From the NCBI RefSeq assembly GCF_006716765.1, contig NZ_VFPO01000001.1:992001-1056000 (forward strand): 64,000 nucleotides of DNA, given 5' to 3'. The stretch is from Actinomadura hallensis (lineage in GTDB: Bacteria; Actinomycetota; Actinomycetes; Streptosporangiales; Streptosporangiaceae). Below, in pieces: positions 15,067-24,357 of this stretch. The notes below the pieces were generated by a model. It was given only the letters and a program-made list of their open reading frames with translations. It had not been told where the DNA came from and ran no database searches. The translations under genes were made by a program, and so were the position numbers. Each line of letters starts with the position of its first letter. Position 1 is the first letter of the stretch.

Positions 15067-16557
15067 GTGTGGGCCACGATGCCGTGCATGTCATCAGGCC
15101 CGGACCCCCGCCACGACCGCCCGATCTTCGTCCTCGGATGTCCCCGCTCGGGCACGACGCTCCTGCAGCTGATGCTGCACTCGCACGCCCGCATCGCGAT
15201 CCCCGCGGAGACCAAGTTCGTCATCCCGGCCTATGCGCGACGGTGCGAGTTCGGTGACCTCGAAGTGAGGGAGAACAGACGCGCGCTGGCCGAGTGGATC
15301 ACGGGCGAGCGGTCCACCAAGTTCCGCGTGCTCGGGCTGGACGCCGACGCGGTCGTCGAGGAGATCGTCGACGGGCCGCCCACGGTGGGGTCGGCGATCG
15401 GCATCGTGTTCCGCGCCTACGCCCGCCGTTTCGGCAAGGTGCGCTGGGGCGACAAGCGCCCCAGCTACTTCCGGCAGGCCGGCACGCTGCTGAGGATGTT
15501 CCCGGACGCGCAGTTCGTCCACCTCGTCCGGGACGGCCGCGACTGCGTCGCCTCGCTGATGGAGATGCCCTGGTACGACAAGGACGTCTACCACGCCATC
15601 TCCGCGTGGCGGGAGTCGATCGACCGCGGGCGCCGGCTGGCCGAGCGCCTCGGCCCCGACTCCTACTACGAGCTCCAGTACGAGCGGCTCGTCGCCGACC
15701 CCGCCGACGAGCTGGCCCGGCTCTGCGGCTTCCTCGGCGAGGACTTCGACCCGGCGATGACGCGGCCGGAGGGCATCGCCAGGCAGACCGTCTCCCCGAG
15801 CAAGAAGTGGCACCGGCGGACCCGCGACGGCGTCACCACGAGCCGCATCGGCTCCTGGGCGGAACGCCTCGACGCCTGGCAGATCAGCCTGGCGGAGGCC
15901 GCGTTCGGCGAGCGCCTCGCCGAGTACGGCTACGAGCCGAGCGGACTGCCGAAGCCGCCCGCGTCCCAGCTCGCGCGCTTCACCAAGACCAGCGCCCACC
16001 GCCGCATCGCCCAGCACAAGGCCGCACTGCGCGAACGCTGGAAGCAGCATCACGAACCGAACCCCGTCCGTTGCCTCCTCCCTCCTGCCTCCACGGTGTC
16101 GCTCACGGAAGCGACACCGACCGCACAGACCGAACAGGCCCAGATGGAGCAGGCACGGGCCGGATCGGCGGGGCCGGACGCGAAGCGCGCAGTGCCGGCG
16201 CAGGCGGGCCCGGAGCGCCCGCGGCCGGAGCCGGCTGGGCCGGAGCCGGCAGGGTCGGAGCGAGCAGGGTCGGAGCGAGCAGGGTCAGAGCGCGCAGGGT
16301 TGGAGCCGGCAGAGCCGGAGCGAGCGGAATCGGAACGCGCGAAGGCGACGCCCGCGTCGACGAGGCCGGAACGAACCAGGTCGGCGCGTGCGGACTCGGA
16401 GTCCCCGAAGAGGACGCCGACGCGCACGGGCGCGGGACGGACCGAAACGGCGCGTGCGGAACCCGCGGAGCCGGAGCGCACGGTTTCCGAGCGCGCCGTC
16501 TCCGAGCGCGCCGTCTCCGAGCGAGCGACGTCGGCGGAGTCAGTCCAGGGCGGCTAG
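15067..16557 (+). CDS. PAPS-dependent sulfotransferase with a repeat tail
   Basis: Up to 496 residues; starts at GTG 15067, ATG 15079 or ATG 15088 are all possible and none has a strong site. The sulfotransferase domain (about 330 residues) shows the 5'-phosphosulfate loop FVLGCPRSGTTLLQLML and the 3'-phosphate motif FVHLVRDGRDCVASL. Such enzymes move sulfate from PAPS to a sugar, lipid or peptide acceptor. The following ~165 residues are a Glu/Arg/Ala/Ser tail with AGSER and AVSER pentads, encoded by 15-base direct repeats. This tail has no family match and its last 18 bases overlap the end of otsA on the other strand. The acceptor is unknown. Confidence 0.85.
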   Translation: MWATMPCMSSGPDPRHDRPIFVLGCPRSGTTLLQLMLHSHARIAIPAETKFVIPAYARRCEFGDLEVRENRRALAEWITGERSTKFRVLGLDADAVVEEIVDGPPTVGSAIGIVFRAYARRFGKVRWGDKRPSYFRQAGTLLRMFPDAQFVHLVRDGRDCVASLMEMPWYDKDVYHAISAWRESIDRGRRLAERLGPDSYYELQYERLVADPADELARLCGFLGEDFDPAMTRPEGIARQTVSPSKKWHRRTRDGVTTSRIGSWAERLDAWQISLAEAAFGERLAEYGYEPSGLPKPPASQLARFTKTSAHRRIAQHKAALRERWKQHHEPNPVRCLLPPASTVSLTEATPTAQTEQAQMEQARAGSAGPDAKRAVPAQAGPERPRPEPAGPEPAGSERAGSERAGSERAGLEPAEPERAESERAKATPASTRPERTRSARADSESPKRTPTRTGAGRTETARAEPAEPERTVSERAVSERAVSERATSAESVQGG

Positions 16558-18081
16558 CTGGTCGGCGAACCAGCGCTGCGGGGGGAGAGCCGTCGCCGCG
16601 GCGGCGAGCCGGGCGCAGCGTTCCGCGCGTTCGGCGGGCGGCATCAGCAGGGCCTGGTGGAGGGTCTCGGCGGTCTGCGACACGTCGTACGGGTTGACCA
16701 TCAGGGCGTCATCGGAGAGCTCCGCCGCCGCGCCCGCCTCCCGGGACAGCACCAGCGCGCAGCCGCGTTCCGACAGCACCGGCCCCTCCTTCGCGACCAG
16801 GTTCATCCCGTCCCGGATCGGGTTGACGAGCAGGACGTCCGCCAGCCCGTAGGCGGCGAGGGAACGCGGATAGTCGTCGTTCACCTGGAGGATCAGCGGG
16901 TCCCAGTCCGCCGTTCCGAACTCGTCGGTGATCTGCTTCGCGATCCGCTGGACGGCCGCCGTGTACTCCCGGTACTCCGGCAGGTCGTAGCGGGACGGGT
17001 ACGCGAACGCCAGGTGCACCACGCGTCCGCGCCACTCGGGATGATCGACGAGCAGCTCCCGGTAGGCGGCGAGCCCGCGCACGATGTTCTTGGACAGCTC
17101 CGTCCGGTCGATGCGGACGATGAGCCGGCGGTCGCCCACCTGCTCGCGCAGCGCGCGCGTCCGCTCCACGACGTCCTGTTCGGCGGCGCGCCTGCGCAGC
17201 GCCGCCCCGTCGATGCCGAGACCATGCACGCCTACGCGCGTGACGTGACCGGAACAGGTGACGGTACGGGCGGCGCGGTCGACCCTCGCGCCGGGCAGCC
17301 GCTCGCAGCAGTCGAGGAACGCCGAAGCCCACCGCTCGGTGAGGAACCCCGCGTGGTCGGCGCCGAGGATGCCCAGCAGGACCTGCTCGCCGATGGCGTC
17401 GGGGAGCAGCCCGAAGTACTCCGGCGGCGCCCAGGGCGTGTGCGAGAAGTGCGCGATCCTCAGGTCGGGACGCCGTTCGCGCAGCATCCTCGGAGCCAGC
17501 GACAGGTGGTAGTCCTGGATCGCCGCCTTCGCTCCCTGCGCCGCGTCCCGGGCGAGGGCGTCGGCGAACGCCGCGTTGTACGCCTCGTAGGACTGCCAGT
17601 CACGGCGGGCGCGGGCGTCGAAGTGCGGGCTGCGCGGCGTGTCGTACAGCAGGTGGTGGACGAACCACAGCGTCGAGTTGGCCACCGCGTTGTACGCGCG
17701 CTGGAACGTGGCCTCGGGGATGTCGAGCATCCGCACGGCCGCGCCGCCCGTCTCGTAACCGGCGAGGTCGATGCGGCCGTCCGGTGAGCGGCGCGCGGCC
17801 GTCCGGTCGCCCTCGCCCAGGCTCGCGCACACCCACAGGACGTTCGGGTCGTCCGCCGGCGGCTCGGCCCCCGTGCCGGTGGCCCCTGTGGCTGTGGACC
17901 CTGTGCCGGGGGACACCGTGGCGGCCGCCGGGCGCGGCGGCCCGGGGTCGCGCGGAGCGCCCGTGACGGCGGCGAGCCCGGAGACCAGACCACCGCCCCC
18001 GCGCCGCATGGTGAGCGCACCGTCCTCCGAAAGGGAGAACGACACCGGGCCCCGGTTCGATGCCACCAGCACTTGGCTCAT
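16540..18081 (-). CDS. otsA: Trehalose-6-phosphate synthase
   Basis: 513 residues, retaining-type glycosyltransferase family 20. It begins QVLVASNRGPVSF, has the glucose-6-phosphate/UDP-binding GGGGLVSGL near residue 30, the LAPRMLRERRPDLRIAHFSHTPWAPPEYF segment seen in parts, DRTELSKNIVRGLAAY, and NPIRDGMNLVAKE near the C-terminus. It joins NDP-glucose and glucose-6-phosphate to trehalose-6-phosphate in the cytoplasm; otsB in this window finishes the pathway. An insertion rich in Pro/Gly/Thr at about residues 44-75 is longer than in the E. coli enzyme. The gene converges on the sulfotransferase tail, overlapping by 18 bases. Confidence 0.93.
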   Translation of the reverse strand: MSQVLVASNRGPVSFSLSEDGALTMRRGGGGLVSGLAAVTGAPRDPGPPRPAAATVSPGTGSTATGATGTGAEPPADDPNVLWVCASLGEGDRTAARRSPDGRIDLAGYETGGAAVRMLDIPEATFQRAYNAVANSTLWFVHHLLYDTPRSPHFDARARRDWQSYEAYNAAFADALARDAAQGAKAAIQDYHLSLAPRMLRERRPDLRIAHFSHTPWAPPEYFGLLPDAIGEQVLLGILGADHAGFLTERWASAFLDCCERLPGARVDRAARTVTCSGHVTRVGVHGLGIDGAALRRRAAEQDVVERTRALREQVGDRRLIVRIDRTELSKNIVRGLAAYRELLVDHPEWRGRVVHLAFAYPSRYDLPEYREYTAAVQRIAKQITDEFGTADWDPLILQVNDDYPRSLAAYGLADVLLVNPIRDGMNLVAKEGPVLSERGCALVLSREAGAAAELSDDALMVNPYDVSQTAETLHQALLMPPAERAERCARLAAAATALPPQRWFADQLAALD

Positions 18082-18190
18082 ACCGGCAGGGTCTCAGTTG
18101 GGGCCGAGGACGTTCAAAGTGACCCGGGTGGTCCGCACCACCGCCGGAACCCCCTTGATTACAGGGAAAAGCGACGGGTACCCGACGGGG

Positions 18191-18857
18191 ATGAGCAGCG
18201 CCGACACGACGAAGACCGTGCTCGTCGCCGGTGCGGCGAACCTCGTCCTCGCCTTCGCGAAGATCCTGGCCGGGGCGCTGGCGGGATCCAGCGCGATGCT
18301 CGCCGAGGGCGCGCACTCGATCGGCGACACCCCGCAAGGAGACGCGTGAGAGCCGGCGCGGCATCGTCGATCACGTCCGCCGGTCGCCCGACGTCACGTT
18401 CAAGGCGGCGCTGTTCGAGGACAGCGCCGCGATGCTGGGCCTCGTCCTCGCCGCCGCCGGGCTGATCCTGCGCGAGGCCACCGGCTCGGACTTCTGGGAC
18501 GGCCTCGCCTCCGTCCTCATCGGCGTGCTGCTCACCGGGCTCGCGTTCGCCATCGGACGGGAGAGCGCCGTCCTGCTGATCGGCCGCGCCGCCGACCCCG
18601 CCACGCAGCGCGAGATCCGCGCCGAGATCCTCGGCGCCCCCGGCGTGACCGGCCTCGAAGAGCTGCTCACCATGCATTTCGGCCCCGAGCAGCTCCTCGT
18701 CGCCGCGAAGGTCCACTTCGCCGACGACATCAGCGCCGACGAGGCCGAGGACATCGCCGGCGAGATCGACCGCAGGCTCAGGGAGCGGCTCCCGGTCGTC
18801 CGGCACGTCTTCCTCGACCCCACCCAGCGCACGACCCGCCGCGGCGAACCGGCGTGA
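18191..18857 (+). pseudogene. Cation diffusion facilitator, internally deleted and frameshifted
   Basis: The 5' part from ATG 18191 encodes 52 residues starting VLVAGAANLVLAFAKILAGALAGSSAMLAEGAHSIGDT, the first helices of a CDF zinc/cadmium exporter with the HSxxD metal site. It then meets a TGA at 18347-18349. The family resumes in another frame from about 18345 with RRGIVDHVRRSPDVTFKAALFEDSAAMLG and continues through the last helices and the cytosolic domain to 18857. About 80 residues that should lie between (the RPADxxHPFGYG region and the third and fourth helices) are missing. A deletion of some 240-250 bases that also shifted the frame explains this. The flanks are collinear, so I see no inserted element. 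Confidence 0.8.
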
Positions 18858-18983
18858 CCAAGAACTCACCCGGGTAACGTCTCAACCGGTGGACCGGCCT
18901 GTCTGCCATCCGGTCAGTTCATGTAAAGTCACGCACTAGAGCTCATAGTGGCTCGGAGCGACATCTGACGGACAACTGAATAT

Positions 18984-19130
18984 TGCTCATCCAGAGGGGT
19001 GGAGGGACCGGCCCTGTGAAGCCCCGGCAACCACCCGGCTGAAGCGCGCTCGCGATCCTGCGAGGCCGGCCGGGAAATGGTGCCAACTCCGGCCTGCGAC
19101 CAAGGTGGCGCAGGAAAGATGGGGAGAAAG
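18984..19130 (+). promoter_or_regulatory. SAM-I (S-box) riboswitch
   Basis: All hallmarks of the S-box are present in order: CTCATC (P1 5' strand, 18986-18991), CCAGAGGGGTGGAGGGA, CCGGCCCTGTGAAGCCCCGG (P2 with kink-turn), CAACC, a variable P3 arm at about 19035-19070, GGTGCCAACTCC, and GAAAGATGGGGAG closing P1. CUCAUC pairs with GAUGGG at 19118-19123. It sits directly before the thrC-like gene. The P1 3' strand runs into the GAGAAAGG ribosome-binding site, so SAM binding would be expected to hide the site and stop translation. No terminator hairpin with a T-run is seen, which fits translational control in actinomycetes. Confidence 0.95.
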
Positions 19131-19139
19131 GCCTCGCTC

Positions 19140-20384
19140 ATGGCACTCACGCCTGCCAATGATCTTGGACCCGCCACCGGCCTCGTGTGCCGCGAATGCG
19201 GGTCGACCCGTGACCTCGGCCCCTTCTACGCGTGCGAAGAGTGCTTCGGCCCCCTGGAGATCGCCTACGACTTCCAGGGAGTGACCCGCGCGAGCATCGA
19301 GTCCGGGCCGCGCAACATCTGGCGGTACCGGGGGCTGCTGCCCGTCCCGTCCACCGTGGCGGACACCCCGAACACCGAGCCCGGCCTGACGCGTCTCGTG
19401 CGCGCCGACAACCTCGCCGAGAACCTCGGCCTGCAGAGCCTGTGGGTGAAGGACGACAGCGGCAACCCGACCCACTCGTTCAAGGACCGCGTCGTCGCGG
19501 TGGCGCTCGCCGCGGCCCGCGAGCTGGGCTTCAAGGTGCTGGCCTGCCCGTCCACCGGGAACCTGGCGAACGCCGTCGCCGCCGCGGCGGCCCGCGCCGG
19601 GATCCGCAGCGCCGTGTTCGTCCCGTCGAACCTCGAGTCCCAGAAGATCATCACGACGGCCGTGTACGGCGGGACGTTCGTGACGGTCGACGGCAACTAC
19701 GACGACGTCAACCGGCTCGCGTCCGAGATCGCCGGGGAGCAGGACGACTGGGCGTTCGTGAACGTCAACGTCCGGCCGTATTACGCGGAGGGCTCCAAGA
19801 CCCTCGGTTACGAGATCGCCGAGCAGCTCGGCTGGCGGCTGCCGGACCAGATCGTCGTCCCGATCGCGTCCGGGTCCCAGCTCACCAAGATCGACAAGGC
19901 GTTCCAGGAGCTGATCTCCCTGGGTCTGGTGGAGGACAGGCCGTACCGCGTCTTCGGCGCGCAGGCCGCCGGCTGCGCCCCCGTCGCCGCCGCGTTCAAG
20001 GCCGGGCACGACGTCGTCCGGCCGGTGAAGCCCGACACGATCGCCAAGTCCCTCGCCATCGGCAACCCCGCCGACGGCCCGTACGTCCTGGACGTCGTCC
20101 GCCGCACGAACGGCGCCGTCGAGGACGTCACCGACGAGGAGGTGGTCGAGGGCATCCGGCTGCTCGCCGGCACCGAGGGCGTCTTCGGCGAGACCGCCGG
20201 CGGCGTCACCGTCGCGACCCTGCGCAAACTCATCGGGACCGGTGCCCTCGACCCGTCCGCCGAAACCGTGATCATCAACTCGGGGGACGGCCTGAAGACC
20301 CTGGACGCCGTCGCGCCCGTCGTCGCCCCGTCCGCGAACATCGCCCCGTCCCTGGAAGCCTTCCGCGCCGCCGGCCTGGCCTGA
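19140..20384 (+). CDS. thrC: Threonine-synthase-family PLP enzyme under a SAM riboswitch
   Basis: 414 residues from ATG 19140 (GAGAAAGG upstream). The N-terminus has a zinc-ribbon-like Cys17xxCys20...Cys32xxCys35. The fold-type II PLP core has SGNPTHSFKDR with Lys115 as the cofactor lysine, CPSTGNLANAVAAAAAR for phosphate binding, and IASGSQLTK. Threonine synthase turns O-phosphohomoserine into threonine. Two facts argue for a different nucleophile here: the upstream switch senses SAM, not threonine, and the next gene, ten bases on, is a MoaD/ThiS sulfur carrier. An enzyme of this fold could accept thiocarboxylated carrier instead of water and make homocysteine. The family call is firm; the altered reaction is inference. 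Confidence 0.9.
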   Translation: MALTPANDLGPATGLVCRECGSTRDLGPFYACEECFGPLEIAYDFQGVTRASIESGPRNIWRYRGLLPVPSTVADTPNTEPGLTRLVRADNLAENLGLQSLWVKDDSGNPTHSFKDRVVAVALAAARELGFKVLACPSTGNLANAVAAAAARAGIRSAVFVPSNLESQKIITTAVYGGTFVTVDGNYDDVNRLASEIAGEQDDWAFVNVNVRPYYAEGSKTLGYEIAEQLGWRLPDQIVVPIASGSQLTKIDKAFQELISLGLVEDRPYRVFGAQAAGCAPVAAAFKAGHDVVRPVKPDTIAKSLAIGNPADGPYVLDVVRRTNGAVEDVTDEEVVEGIRLLAGTEGVFGETAGGVTVATLRKLIGTGALDPSAETVIINSGDGLKTLDAVAPVVAPSANIAPSLEAFRAAGLA

Positions 20385-20394
20385 GAGGAGCACC

Positions 20395-20673
20395 ATGAGC
20401 ACCGTGTCCGTCCGAATCCCGACGATCCTGCGGAGCTACACCGGCGGCGAGGCGGAGGTGAAGGCCGACGGCTCCACCCTCCGGGCCGTCATCGCCGACC
20501 TGGAGTCGAGCTACACCGGGATCTCCGCCCGCATCCTGGACGACAACGGCAAGATCCGCCGCTTCGTGAACGTCTACGTGGGCGATGAGGACGTCCGCTT
20601 CGCCGACGGCCTCGACACCGCCACCCCCGAGGGCGTCCAGATCTCGATCATCCCCGCCGTCGCCGGAGGCTGA
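20395..20673 (+). CDS. MoaD/ThiS-family sulfur-carrier protein
   Basis: 92 residues with the beta-grasp pattern: VSVRIPTILRSYTGGEAEV, VIADLESSYTGISARIL, RFVNVYVGDEDVRF, and the essential C-terminal Gly-Gly (AVAGG). In such proteins an MoeB/ThiF-type enzyme adenylates the last glycine and it receives sulfur as a thiocarboxylate. The gene follows the thrC-like stop by ten bases with GAGAGGAG in front, so the two form one mRNA behind the SAM riboswitch. No molybdopterin or thiamin genes are nearby; this makes a role with the PLP enzyme the best reading, like CysO with CysM. Confidence 0.9.
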   Translation: MSTVSVRIPTILRSYTGGEAEVKADGSTLRAVIADLESSYTGISARILDDNGKIRRFVNVYVGDEDVRFADGLDTATPEGVQISIIPAVAGG

Positions 20674-20692
20674 CGGCCCGCACCGGATCCCC

Positions 20693-20729
20693 GGAGTCCC
20701 CGGCGCGCTCGCCGCGCGCCGGGGACTCC
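20693..20729 (+). terminator. Rho-independent-type hairpin after the sulfur-carrier gene
   Basis: A perfect 16-bp stem (GGAGTCCCCGGCGCGC with its complement) and a 5-base loop lie 20 bases after the stop at 20673. A clear T-run is lacking (TGCTCTTC follows), as is usual for actinomycete terminators. Confidence 0.8.
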
Positions 20730-20960
20730 TGCTCTTCGATCATTTGCGACATAGCTATACGCACGGCGAATACACGAGATTCCGGATATAAGTATCTGTC
20801 CGCCGTCTTAGCGGGCCGCTTCCGATAAACGTAGCTGTGCTTTCGTGCCACCTACTTAGAGCGGCCTGGTAATGCGCTTTGGTTTGCTCACATGTCTTCC
20901 CTGGAAAGGGTTGCGTGGGCGCTCAGAAGGGCGTGCACACACCACAGAGAGAGGAACGGC

Positions 20961-21842
20961 ATGAAGCGCATTGCGCGTGCTGTGACGATTACCGGGATCA
21001 CGATGGGGGCGGCCGTCCTTGCGGCTCCCACGGCGATGGCGGACATCAACATCTACGCCGTGGACAAGGCCGTCATCGGGCACTACGGCCCCACCTTCCT
21101 CAGCGAGAACGGGCCCGGCAACCTGTCGTTCAGCAGCGTCACGGGGTCGCCGAAGGCGTCTCCGAAGGTCGGCAACGACTCGGTGAAGACCGGTGACATC
21201 TCCACCAAGCTCAAGGGTGGCAAGGGCAACACCGTCGTCAACGAGATCGAGGGCTCCGAGCAGGACGAGGGCGAGGGCGCCGCCGAGGCGTCGGCCGAAG
21301 AGGCCTCGGCTGAGGAGGGCGCTGCCGAGGAGGCTGCTTCCCAGCAGGCGCAGCAGCTCGAGGCTGCTCCGCAGGAGGAGGCCGAGGCTGAGGAGGCCGA
21401 GGCCGCCGAGGCCGCTCCGCAGGAGGAGGCCGCTCAGGAGGAGGCTCCTCAGGAGGAGGCCGCCCAGCAGGAGGCCGCTCCGCAGGAGGAGGCCGCTCAG
21501 CAGGCGCAGCAGCTGCAGGCCGCCCCGCAGGAGGAGGCCGCTCAGCAGCGGATCGCGTCCGGTGGCAAGGACGGCAAGGGCCACGGCAAGGGCGACGACG
21601 AGGGCCAGTCGGTCAAGCACTCCATCATCGGCCACAACGGCCCGACCCTGGGGGTCGAGACCGGCCCGGGCAACCTGAACTTCAGCTCGGTGACCGGCTC
21701 GCCGTACGCCTCGCCGAAGGTCGGCAACGAGTCGGTGAAGACCGGTGACATCACCACCGTACTCAAGGGCGGCAAGGGCAACATCGCCGTCAACGAGGTC
21801 GAGGGCCCCGAGCAGGACGAGGGCGAGGGCGCGGCCAACTGA
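20961..21842 (+). CDS. Secreted protein with two homologous repeats around an acidic Gln/Glu/Ala-rich linker
   Basis: 293 residues from ATG 20961 (AGAGAGGAAC upstream). A Sec signal peptide ends near Ala27 (PTAMA-D). Residues about 38-108 and 222-293 are two copies of the same ~71-residue module, sharing IGHxGPT, GPGNLxFSSVTGSP, ASPKVGNxSVKTGDI, LKGGKGN, VNEIEG or VNEVEG and QDEGEGAA. Between them are about 100 residues of AAPQEEAAQ-like low complexity and a short GKDGKGHGKGDD stretch. I know no named family. It looks like a surface or matrix protein with repeated adhesive ends. An AT-rich control region of 230 bases precedes it and a strong terminator follows, so it is monocistronic and possibly highly expressed. 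Confidence 0.8.
   Translation: MKRIARAVTITGITMGAAVLAAPTAMADINIYAVDKAVIGHYGPTFLSENGPGNLSFSSVTGSPKASPKVGNDSVKTGDISTKLKGGKGNTVVNEIEGSEQDEGEGAAEASAEEASAEEGAAEEAASQQAQQLEAAPQEEAEAEEAEAAEAAPQEEAAQEEAPQEEAAQQEAAPQEEAAQQAQQLQAAPQEEAAQQRIASGGKDGKGHGKGDDEGQSVKHSIIGHNGPTLGVETGPGNLNFSSVTGSPYASPKVGNESVKTGDITTVLKGGKGNIAVNEVEGPEQDEGEGAAN

Positions 21843-22572: not shown

Positions 22573-24357
<1,785 letters not shown>

Follow-up and report, generated by a model that had tools for sequence, protein, structure and literature searches.

Hasebe and colleagues reportedly described a pair of Streptomyces proteins, MetM and MetO, that forms homocysteine from O-phosphohomoserine and a carrier thiocarboxylate, in a genus whose members are said often to be without the canonical genes. 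The HcyS/HcyD/MetY system of Wolinella, associated with the names of Krishnamoorthy and Begley, is said to use MetY, an enzyme of another PLP fold, together with O-acetylhomoserine. In the available text of PMC12172450, the metM gene of Streptomyces albulus is described with a SAM riboswitch upstream and with MetO as its carrier partner (Hasebe et al. 2024, AEM 90:e01247-24), and no other MetM papers were found among the matches listed in the open-licence literature. According to the same text, a Microcystis homologue with 51.6% identity to MetM, whose gene adjoins a metO-like one, acts in vitro as a threonine synthase and as a deaminase, and methionine was not raised in threonine-treated cells (PMC12172450). 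This result counts against a blanket transfer of the MetM function, though the Microcystis gene is described there as being without a SAM riboswitch. The accessible part of PMC5764234 (2018) cites work on the Wolinella thiocarboxylate route to methionine (Krishnamoorthy and Begley 2011), describes a further homocysteine route that involves DUF39, and lists Acidimicrobium ferrooxidans as being without the routes to homocysteine that were known at the time.

The locus that we describe here, from the soil actinobacterium Actinomadura hallensis, very probably encodes MetM and MetO in one operon controlled by a riboswitch of the SAM-I class, which would respond to SAM, a product of methionine; its predicted role is in homocysteine synthesis for methionine. 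Its enzyme is distinct from ThrC in a phylogenetic tree, a carrier with a Gly-Gly end adjoins it, and a SAM riboswitch lies upstream. As far as the published description of the S. albulus system is available, the two share a ThrC-like PLP enzyme, a carrier, a SAM riboswitch, and the O-phosphohomoserine route; the likeness is one of description, and here metX and metY are present as well. The system is thus already published for Streptomyces, and this locus matches it by that description; what we add is its distribution in the phylum, its coexistence with metXY, the lone SAM-I riboswitch on metM, an active-site signature of the enzyme, and the existence of tailed carriers.

Two other systems are close enough to be compared. 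The locus resembles the CysM/CysO/Mec system of Mycobacterium in having a CysO-like carrier, and MoeZ and a Prok-JAB protein are encoded in this genome too. Unlike in that system, the enzyme beside the carrier falls in the ThrC rather than the CysM branch, its best families being threonine synthases, and a CysM-like/CysO-like pair lies elsewhere in the genome (L035). The first-pass annotation had also called on the Wolinella scheme, in which, as here, a protein thiocarboxylate would be the sulfur source for homocysteine. That parallel stands, but it is an analogy only, since MetY is reportedly the enzyme used there; the enzyme here is of the PALP family, and MetY (Cys_Met_Meta_PP) is absent from the locus.

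Layout of the locus and its riboswitch

The window (the whole stretch of DNA that was analysed, 64,000 nucleotides) corresponds to positions 992001-1056000 of the 6.70-Mb A. hallensis genome, which is in one contig. The features of the locus and its neighbors are collected in Table 1.

Table 1. Features of the locus and neighboring genes, in window coordinates
Feature	Position	Strand	Basis
Sulfotransferase-family protein gene	15067-16557	+	
CDF cation-efflux transporter gene, split	17771-18857	+	PF01545
SAM-I (S-box) riboswitch aptamer	18984-19125	+	RF00162
P1 strands of the aptamer	18984-18991 and 19118-19125	+	RF00162
Shine-Dalgarno stretch GGGGAGAAAGG, putative translational expression platform	19121-19131	+	sequence
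GGCCTC element	19130-19135	+	sequence
metM-like gene, 414 aa, ThrC-fold PLP enzyme, predicted homocysteine synthase	19140-20384	+	families, clade, active-site signature, fold
metO-like gene, 92 aa, CysO-like beta-grasp sulfur carrier	20395-20673	+	Pfam ThiS, structure match
Gene for a secreted-looking protein	20961-21842	+	by eye
GroEL-like gene	22729-24357		named by eye

The aptamer scored 77.6 bits against RF00162 (gathering score, 44.4; E 1.6e-16) and aligned along the full model, positions 1-108, thereby matching a SAM-I riboswitch in sequence and structure. It is the sole RF00162 match in a whole-genome scan at E 0.001. Fourteen bases separate its end from the ATG of the metM-like gene, and the metO-like gene starts 10 bases beyond the metM-like stop. 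A longer frame that starts inside the aptamer, at 19077, also appears in the lists of open reading frames; we placed the metM-like start at 19140 because homology in relatives supports this position. The first-pass annotation had reported a complete S-box aptamer, a ThrC-family PLP enzyme with an intact Lys115, and a 92-residue Gly-Gly carrier ten bases on. All three parts were recovered by our searches, and its coordinates and description of the locus proved exact.

Relatives of the enzyme were confirmed in named genomes in 325 cases, and the best 80 of these 325 were analysed. Among them, the closest to the enzyme come from Actinomadura species, with an identity of up to 96%. An RF00162 match lies upstream in 80/80, no more than about 130 nt from the matched stretch and at 60.4-79.9 bits, one of these matches (L122) being cut by a contig start. 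A carrier lies downstream in 76 of the 80, at a spacing of -7 to 276 nt; the carrier of one relative (L055) runs off its contig, and the four relatives without a downstream carrier are L113, L116, L120, and L122. Given this recurrence of both the aptamer and the carrier, the aptamer-enzyme-carrier grouping exceeds chance.

The Shine-Dalgarno stretch starts within the 3' strand of P1, and no terminator-like site was found in window positions 18800-20800, on which account transcription attenuation was dropped as a candidate mechanism. Given this overlap with P1 and the lack of a terminator-like site, translational occlusion by P1 would be the natural reading of the switch: when SAM is plentiful, P1 would form, the ribosome-binding site that begins inside it would be occluded, and translation would go down. 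RNA folding placed the free, P1-less, and P1-forced states within about 2 kcal/mol of each other, and the GGGG of the Shine-Dalgarno stretch was mostly paired in the folds even when P1 was absent. By a crude count that skips 8 bases, the next ATG, GTG, or TTG is found 9-19 nt past the aptamer in 80/80 relatives. The GGCCTC element, which sits between the Shine-Dalgarno stretch and the start codon, is present in 67/80 relatives. In the portion of PMC3766115 that is available, which deals with riboswitch regulons, thrC is not named, and the actinobacteria covered are the Corynebacteriaceae and Mycobacteriaceae only.

Several neighboring genes were noted in passing. The CDF cation-efflux transporter gene that immediately precedes the riboswitch is broken up over two frames and covers PF01545 positions 2-37 and 128-197 only, with the middle of the model missing; it is probably a pseudogene or a sequencing error. 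The secreted-looking protein encoded between the metO-like and GroEL-like genes consists of two similar modules around a long Ala/Gln/Glu-rich linker and has no Pfam match. The sulfotransferase-family protein has a long, repetitive Ala/Glu/Arg/Pro tail.

The MetM-like enzyme and threonine synthase

The metM-like protein scored 271.2 bits against TIGR00260 (thrC; cut-off, 167.1) and matched Pfam PALP at E 4e-71. Its NCBIfam label is threonine synthase, and it carries an N-terminal CxxC..CxxC. The PLP lysine, Lys115, corresponds in the alignment to Lys61 of Thermus ThrC, with conservation of at least 95% in both groups. The best PDB matches of the predicted structure (mean pLDDT, 71) are threonine synthases; this model is weak at the loops that hold the signature residues (109-114, 211-217, and 296-310) and was used for the fold only. 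Compared with the ThrC proteins of Thermus (1uim) and Mycobacterium tuberculosis (2d1f), the fold and the PLP lysine are alike, at about 30-37% identity. Such family and fold matches, together with the in vitro activities of the cyanobacterial homologue (PMC12172450), would favor an enzyme that is a second threonine synthase, or a threonine synthase/deaminase, beside a carrier that serves another enzyme, for example, CysM.

The residues of the active site argue against this reading. In a tree of 40 MetM, 25 ThrC (1uim included), and 7 intermediate sequences, all 40 MetM sequences form one clade (support, 0.878), as do all 25 ThrC sequences (support, 1.0), and the 7 intermediate sequences form no clade of their own. 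Six residues that are invariant in 25/25 ThrC sequences (Thermus T88, S155, N157, R160, N188, and R242) give way to others in 39 or 40 of the 40 MetM sequences, the residues in the same columns being L142, N210, R212, Y215, S244, and A306, respectively. Judged by T88, S155, N157, R160, and N188, the MetM sequences thus fall outside ThrC. The motif STGNL is found in 80/80 relatives and in 40/40 MetM sequences of the phylum survey, in the place where 23/23 ThrC sequences have STGNT. His112 is fixed in the 80 relatives but occurs in only 23/40 sequences of the wider MetM clade.

The rest of the genome weighs in the same direction. The search for a second thrC that the first-pass annotation had proposed as a check was run and returned a hom-thrC-thrB cluster, in which the gene for a separate ThrC (L038; TIGR00260, 317 bits) is flanked by one for homoserine dehydrogenase (NF004976, 551 bits; cut-off, 205) and one for homoserine kinase (TIGR00191, 200 bits; cut-off, 168). 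SAM-I control would be unexpected for a threonine gene, yet it is found on all 80 of the relatives analysed. The CysM-like cysteine synthase gene of the genome has a CysO-like gene of its own alongside, with a Prok-JAB gene upstream. A plain threonine synthase was rejected as the main reading in view of the additional thrC, the SAM-I switch, and the residue replacements, and a role of the carrier as a CysM partner was rejected in view of the CysM-like/CysO-like pair and the JAB protein elsewhere in the genome. We therefore consider a second threonine synthase with an unrelated carrier very unlikely.

Several of the Thermus ThrC residues listed above hold the phosphate of the substrate, and the phosphate that is released helps to make threonine. 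From the replacements, we infer that MetM could not hold the phosphate in the ThrC manner, by which threonine formation would be suppressed and the addition of sulfur at C-gamma favored.

Homocysteine routes in the genome, the genus, and the phylum

The genome also encodes canonical enzymes. MetX (NF047917, 546 bits) adjoins MetY (NF005872, 816 bits) at about 2.15 Mb, 1.1 Mb from the metM locus, and both exceed the curated cut-offs. The region near 1.33 Mb contains a cystathionine beta-synthase gene and a metB-like one, and another MetY/MetB-family relative lies near 5.22 Mb. No Rfam families above their gathering scores were found in the 13 kb around metX-metY. The first-pass annotation had also suggested looking for homologues of metX, metY, and metB; all were present, which speaks counter to MetM as the sole route. 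Given that metX-metY and a metB-like gene are present, the need for methionine does not demand MetM here, and the metM locus is an additional route in this organism.

Within the genus, a MetY-level match (at least 644 bits) was found in 10/60 genomes, 8 of them above the curated cut-off, and the other 50 reached at most 242 bits, in a count that covers MetY only, not MetX or MetM. MetXY looks like the patchy partner in the genus and MetM like the standing one. The strong metX and metY matches in this genome and the patchiness of MetY, as expected for a later gain, would also fit a locus that is a redundant relic here, metXY having taken over. This is highly improbable, however, in view of the intact aptamer, ribosome-binding site, and both reading frames, the close identity of the enzyme to its named Actinomadura homologues, and a riboswitch score that exceeds the 66.6-74.7 bits of the first 20 relatives listed.

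We surveyed the phylum in 118 genomes, evenly drawn and at least 95% complete. The MetM profile matched in 40/118 at 464 bits or more, the next match being at 260 bits, and 38 of the 40 MetM genomes have a further profile match (ThrC or a relative), in two cases with an internal stop. SAM-I lies at most 263 nt upstream of metM in 27/40 (26 above the gathering score and one partial at a contig start); the 13 without a detected SAM-I include at least one whose upstream region is cut by a contig end, and the filters of the scan were strict. A carrier adjoins metM in 30/40 (24/30 and 6/10 loci), with a gap of up to 238 nt; of the 10 without a detected carrier, one lies at a contig end, and the single-query tblastn may miss diverged carriers. 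None of the 7 next-best profile matches (201-260 bits) has a carrier beside it. One family (f13; genomes G007, G021, G033, G043, and G054) has metM without a detected adjacent carrier or SAM-I.

MetM was set beside other routes in the same genomes, among them Pfam HcyBio, which we take to be the DUF39 route. MetX, counted at E 1e-40 (the TIGR01392 cut-off of 500 bits was reached in 0/118, and the 45 best matches have at least 371 bits), was found in 45 genomes, HTS in 17, and HcyBio in 28. The overlap with MetM was 10 genomes for MetX (Fisher p 0.045, weak), 3 for HTS (p 0.17), and 0 for HcyBio (p 1.5e-6). MetX, HTS, or HcyBio is present in 13/40 genomes with MetM versus 70/78 genomes without it (p 2.6e-10), in Fisher tests that treat genomes as independent and ignore shared ancestry. 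Counted over 44 families, MetM (19 families) and HcyBio (9 families) never occur together (p 0.006). MetM is the only one of the four homocysteine routes searched in 27/118 genomes. Taken across the phylum, MetM tends to replace other homocysteine routes, as would be expected of enzymes that are alternative makers of a single product. None of the four routes was found in eight of the 118 genomes (G020, G025, G031, G039, G062, G076, G100, and G107), which are either methionine auxotrophs or users of a route outside the four.

The survey also bears on the substrate. The presence of metX in this genome, and the use of O-acetylhomoserine that is reported for the Wolinella thiocarboxylate route, would be consistent with homocysteine being made from MetX-supplied O-acetylhomoserine, with the pair as an adjunct to the canonical route that draws its sulfur from the carrier. 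We consider this extremely unlikely, given that a MetX match at E 1e-40 is absent in 30/40 MetM genomes, 27 of which are also without HTS, so that an acylhomoserine enzyme was not found in those 27. The published route also runs through O-phosphohomoserine, according to the title of Hasebe et al. as cited in PMC12172450.

Where MetM and MetX occur together, the riboswitch keeps to metM. SAM-I was found upstream of metM in 10/10 of these genomes and within 600 nt upstream of metX in 0/10, and the scan gave no further SAM-I in 8/10. Genome G096 has a SAM-I some 1.5 kb ahead of metX that could head the metX operon. SAM-I precedes metX in 12 of all 45 MetX genomes, in one case with a match under the gathering score; MetM is absent from each of the 12, of which 11 come from a single family, so that the contrast between metM and metX is confounded by ancestry. 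The distribution of SAM-I in the two-route genomes suggests that metMO may be the SAM-sensing branch, and our guess is that it is used when free sulfide is scarce. We tentatively consider a wider reading, which is possible but rather doubtful: MetM would have arisen from a ThrC-like ancestor by a dismantling of the phosphate pocket (T88L, S155N, N157R, R160Y, N188S, and R242A), turning beta-hydration into gamma-thiolation, and metMO would serve beside metX as a SAM-sensing branch under scarce sulfide, metX itself having no SAM-I switch as its direct control.

The carrier and the predicted reaction

The metO-like protein scored 50.8 bits against Pfam ThiS (cut-off, 22.5). Among solved structures, its top match is 3dwg chain C (E 1.5e-29), presumably the CysO of a CysM-CysO complex. 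It ends in IPAVAGG; its identity to the CysO-like protein that is encoded elsewhere in this genome is 51%, and the two share the AVAGG end. The genome has five ThiS-family places, and MoeZ (NF005902, 715 bits) is its only ThiF-family protein over the cut-off.

Not all MetO-like carriers stop at Gly-Gly. Among the 105 with a readable end, 16 continue for 1-16 residues past it, as GGC (L111, L118, L119, L121, L126, and L133), GGAR (L115 and L117), GGA (L178 and L179), or with other tails (L180, L131, L148, L067, L149, and L181). The tailed carriers would need trimming before activation, though frameshifts may account for the three longest tails. A tblastn search of the flanks with the genome's own JAB protein as the query found no Mec-like gene beside the carriers.

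The first-pass annotation had proposed that the enzyme combines O-phosphohomoserine with the carrier thiocarboxylate to form homocysteine under the control of SAM, and this predicted role fits the evidence from the genome and the surveys. The Gly-Gly end of MetO would be activated by MoeZ, through adenylation and then sulfur transfer, to give the thiocarboxylate. MetM would take O-phosphohomoserine from the threonine pathway, and its phosphate would be eliminated on PLP. The sulfur of the thiocarboxylate would then be added at C-gamma, giving free homocysteine at once or a MetO-homocysteine adduct from which it is released by hydrolysis, possibly by the JAB protease encoded beside the CysO-like gene.

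Because the NCBIfam name of the enzyme is threonine synthase, actinobacteria using MetM can seem to have no methionine synthesis. The locus also offers an evolutionary comparison in which one PLP fold and one substrate have two outcomes, threonine or homocysteine, and which of the two is reached may hinge on a handful of active-site residues.
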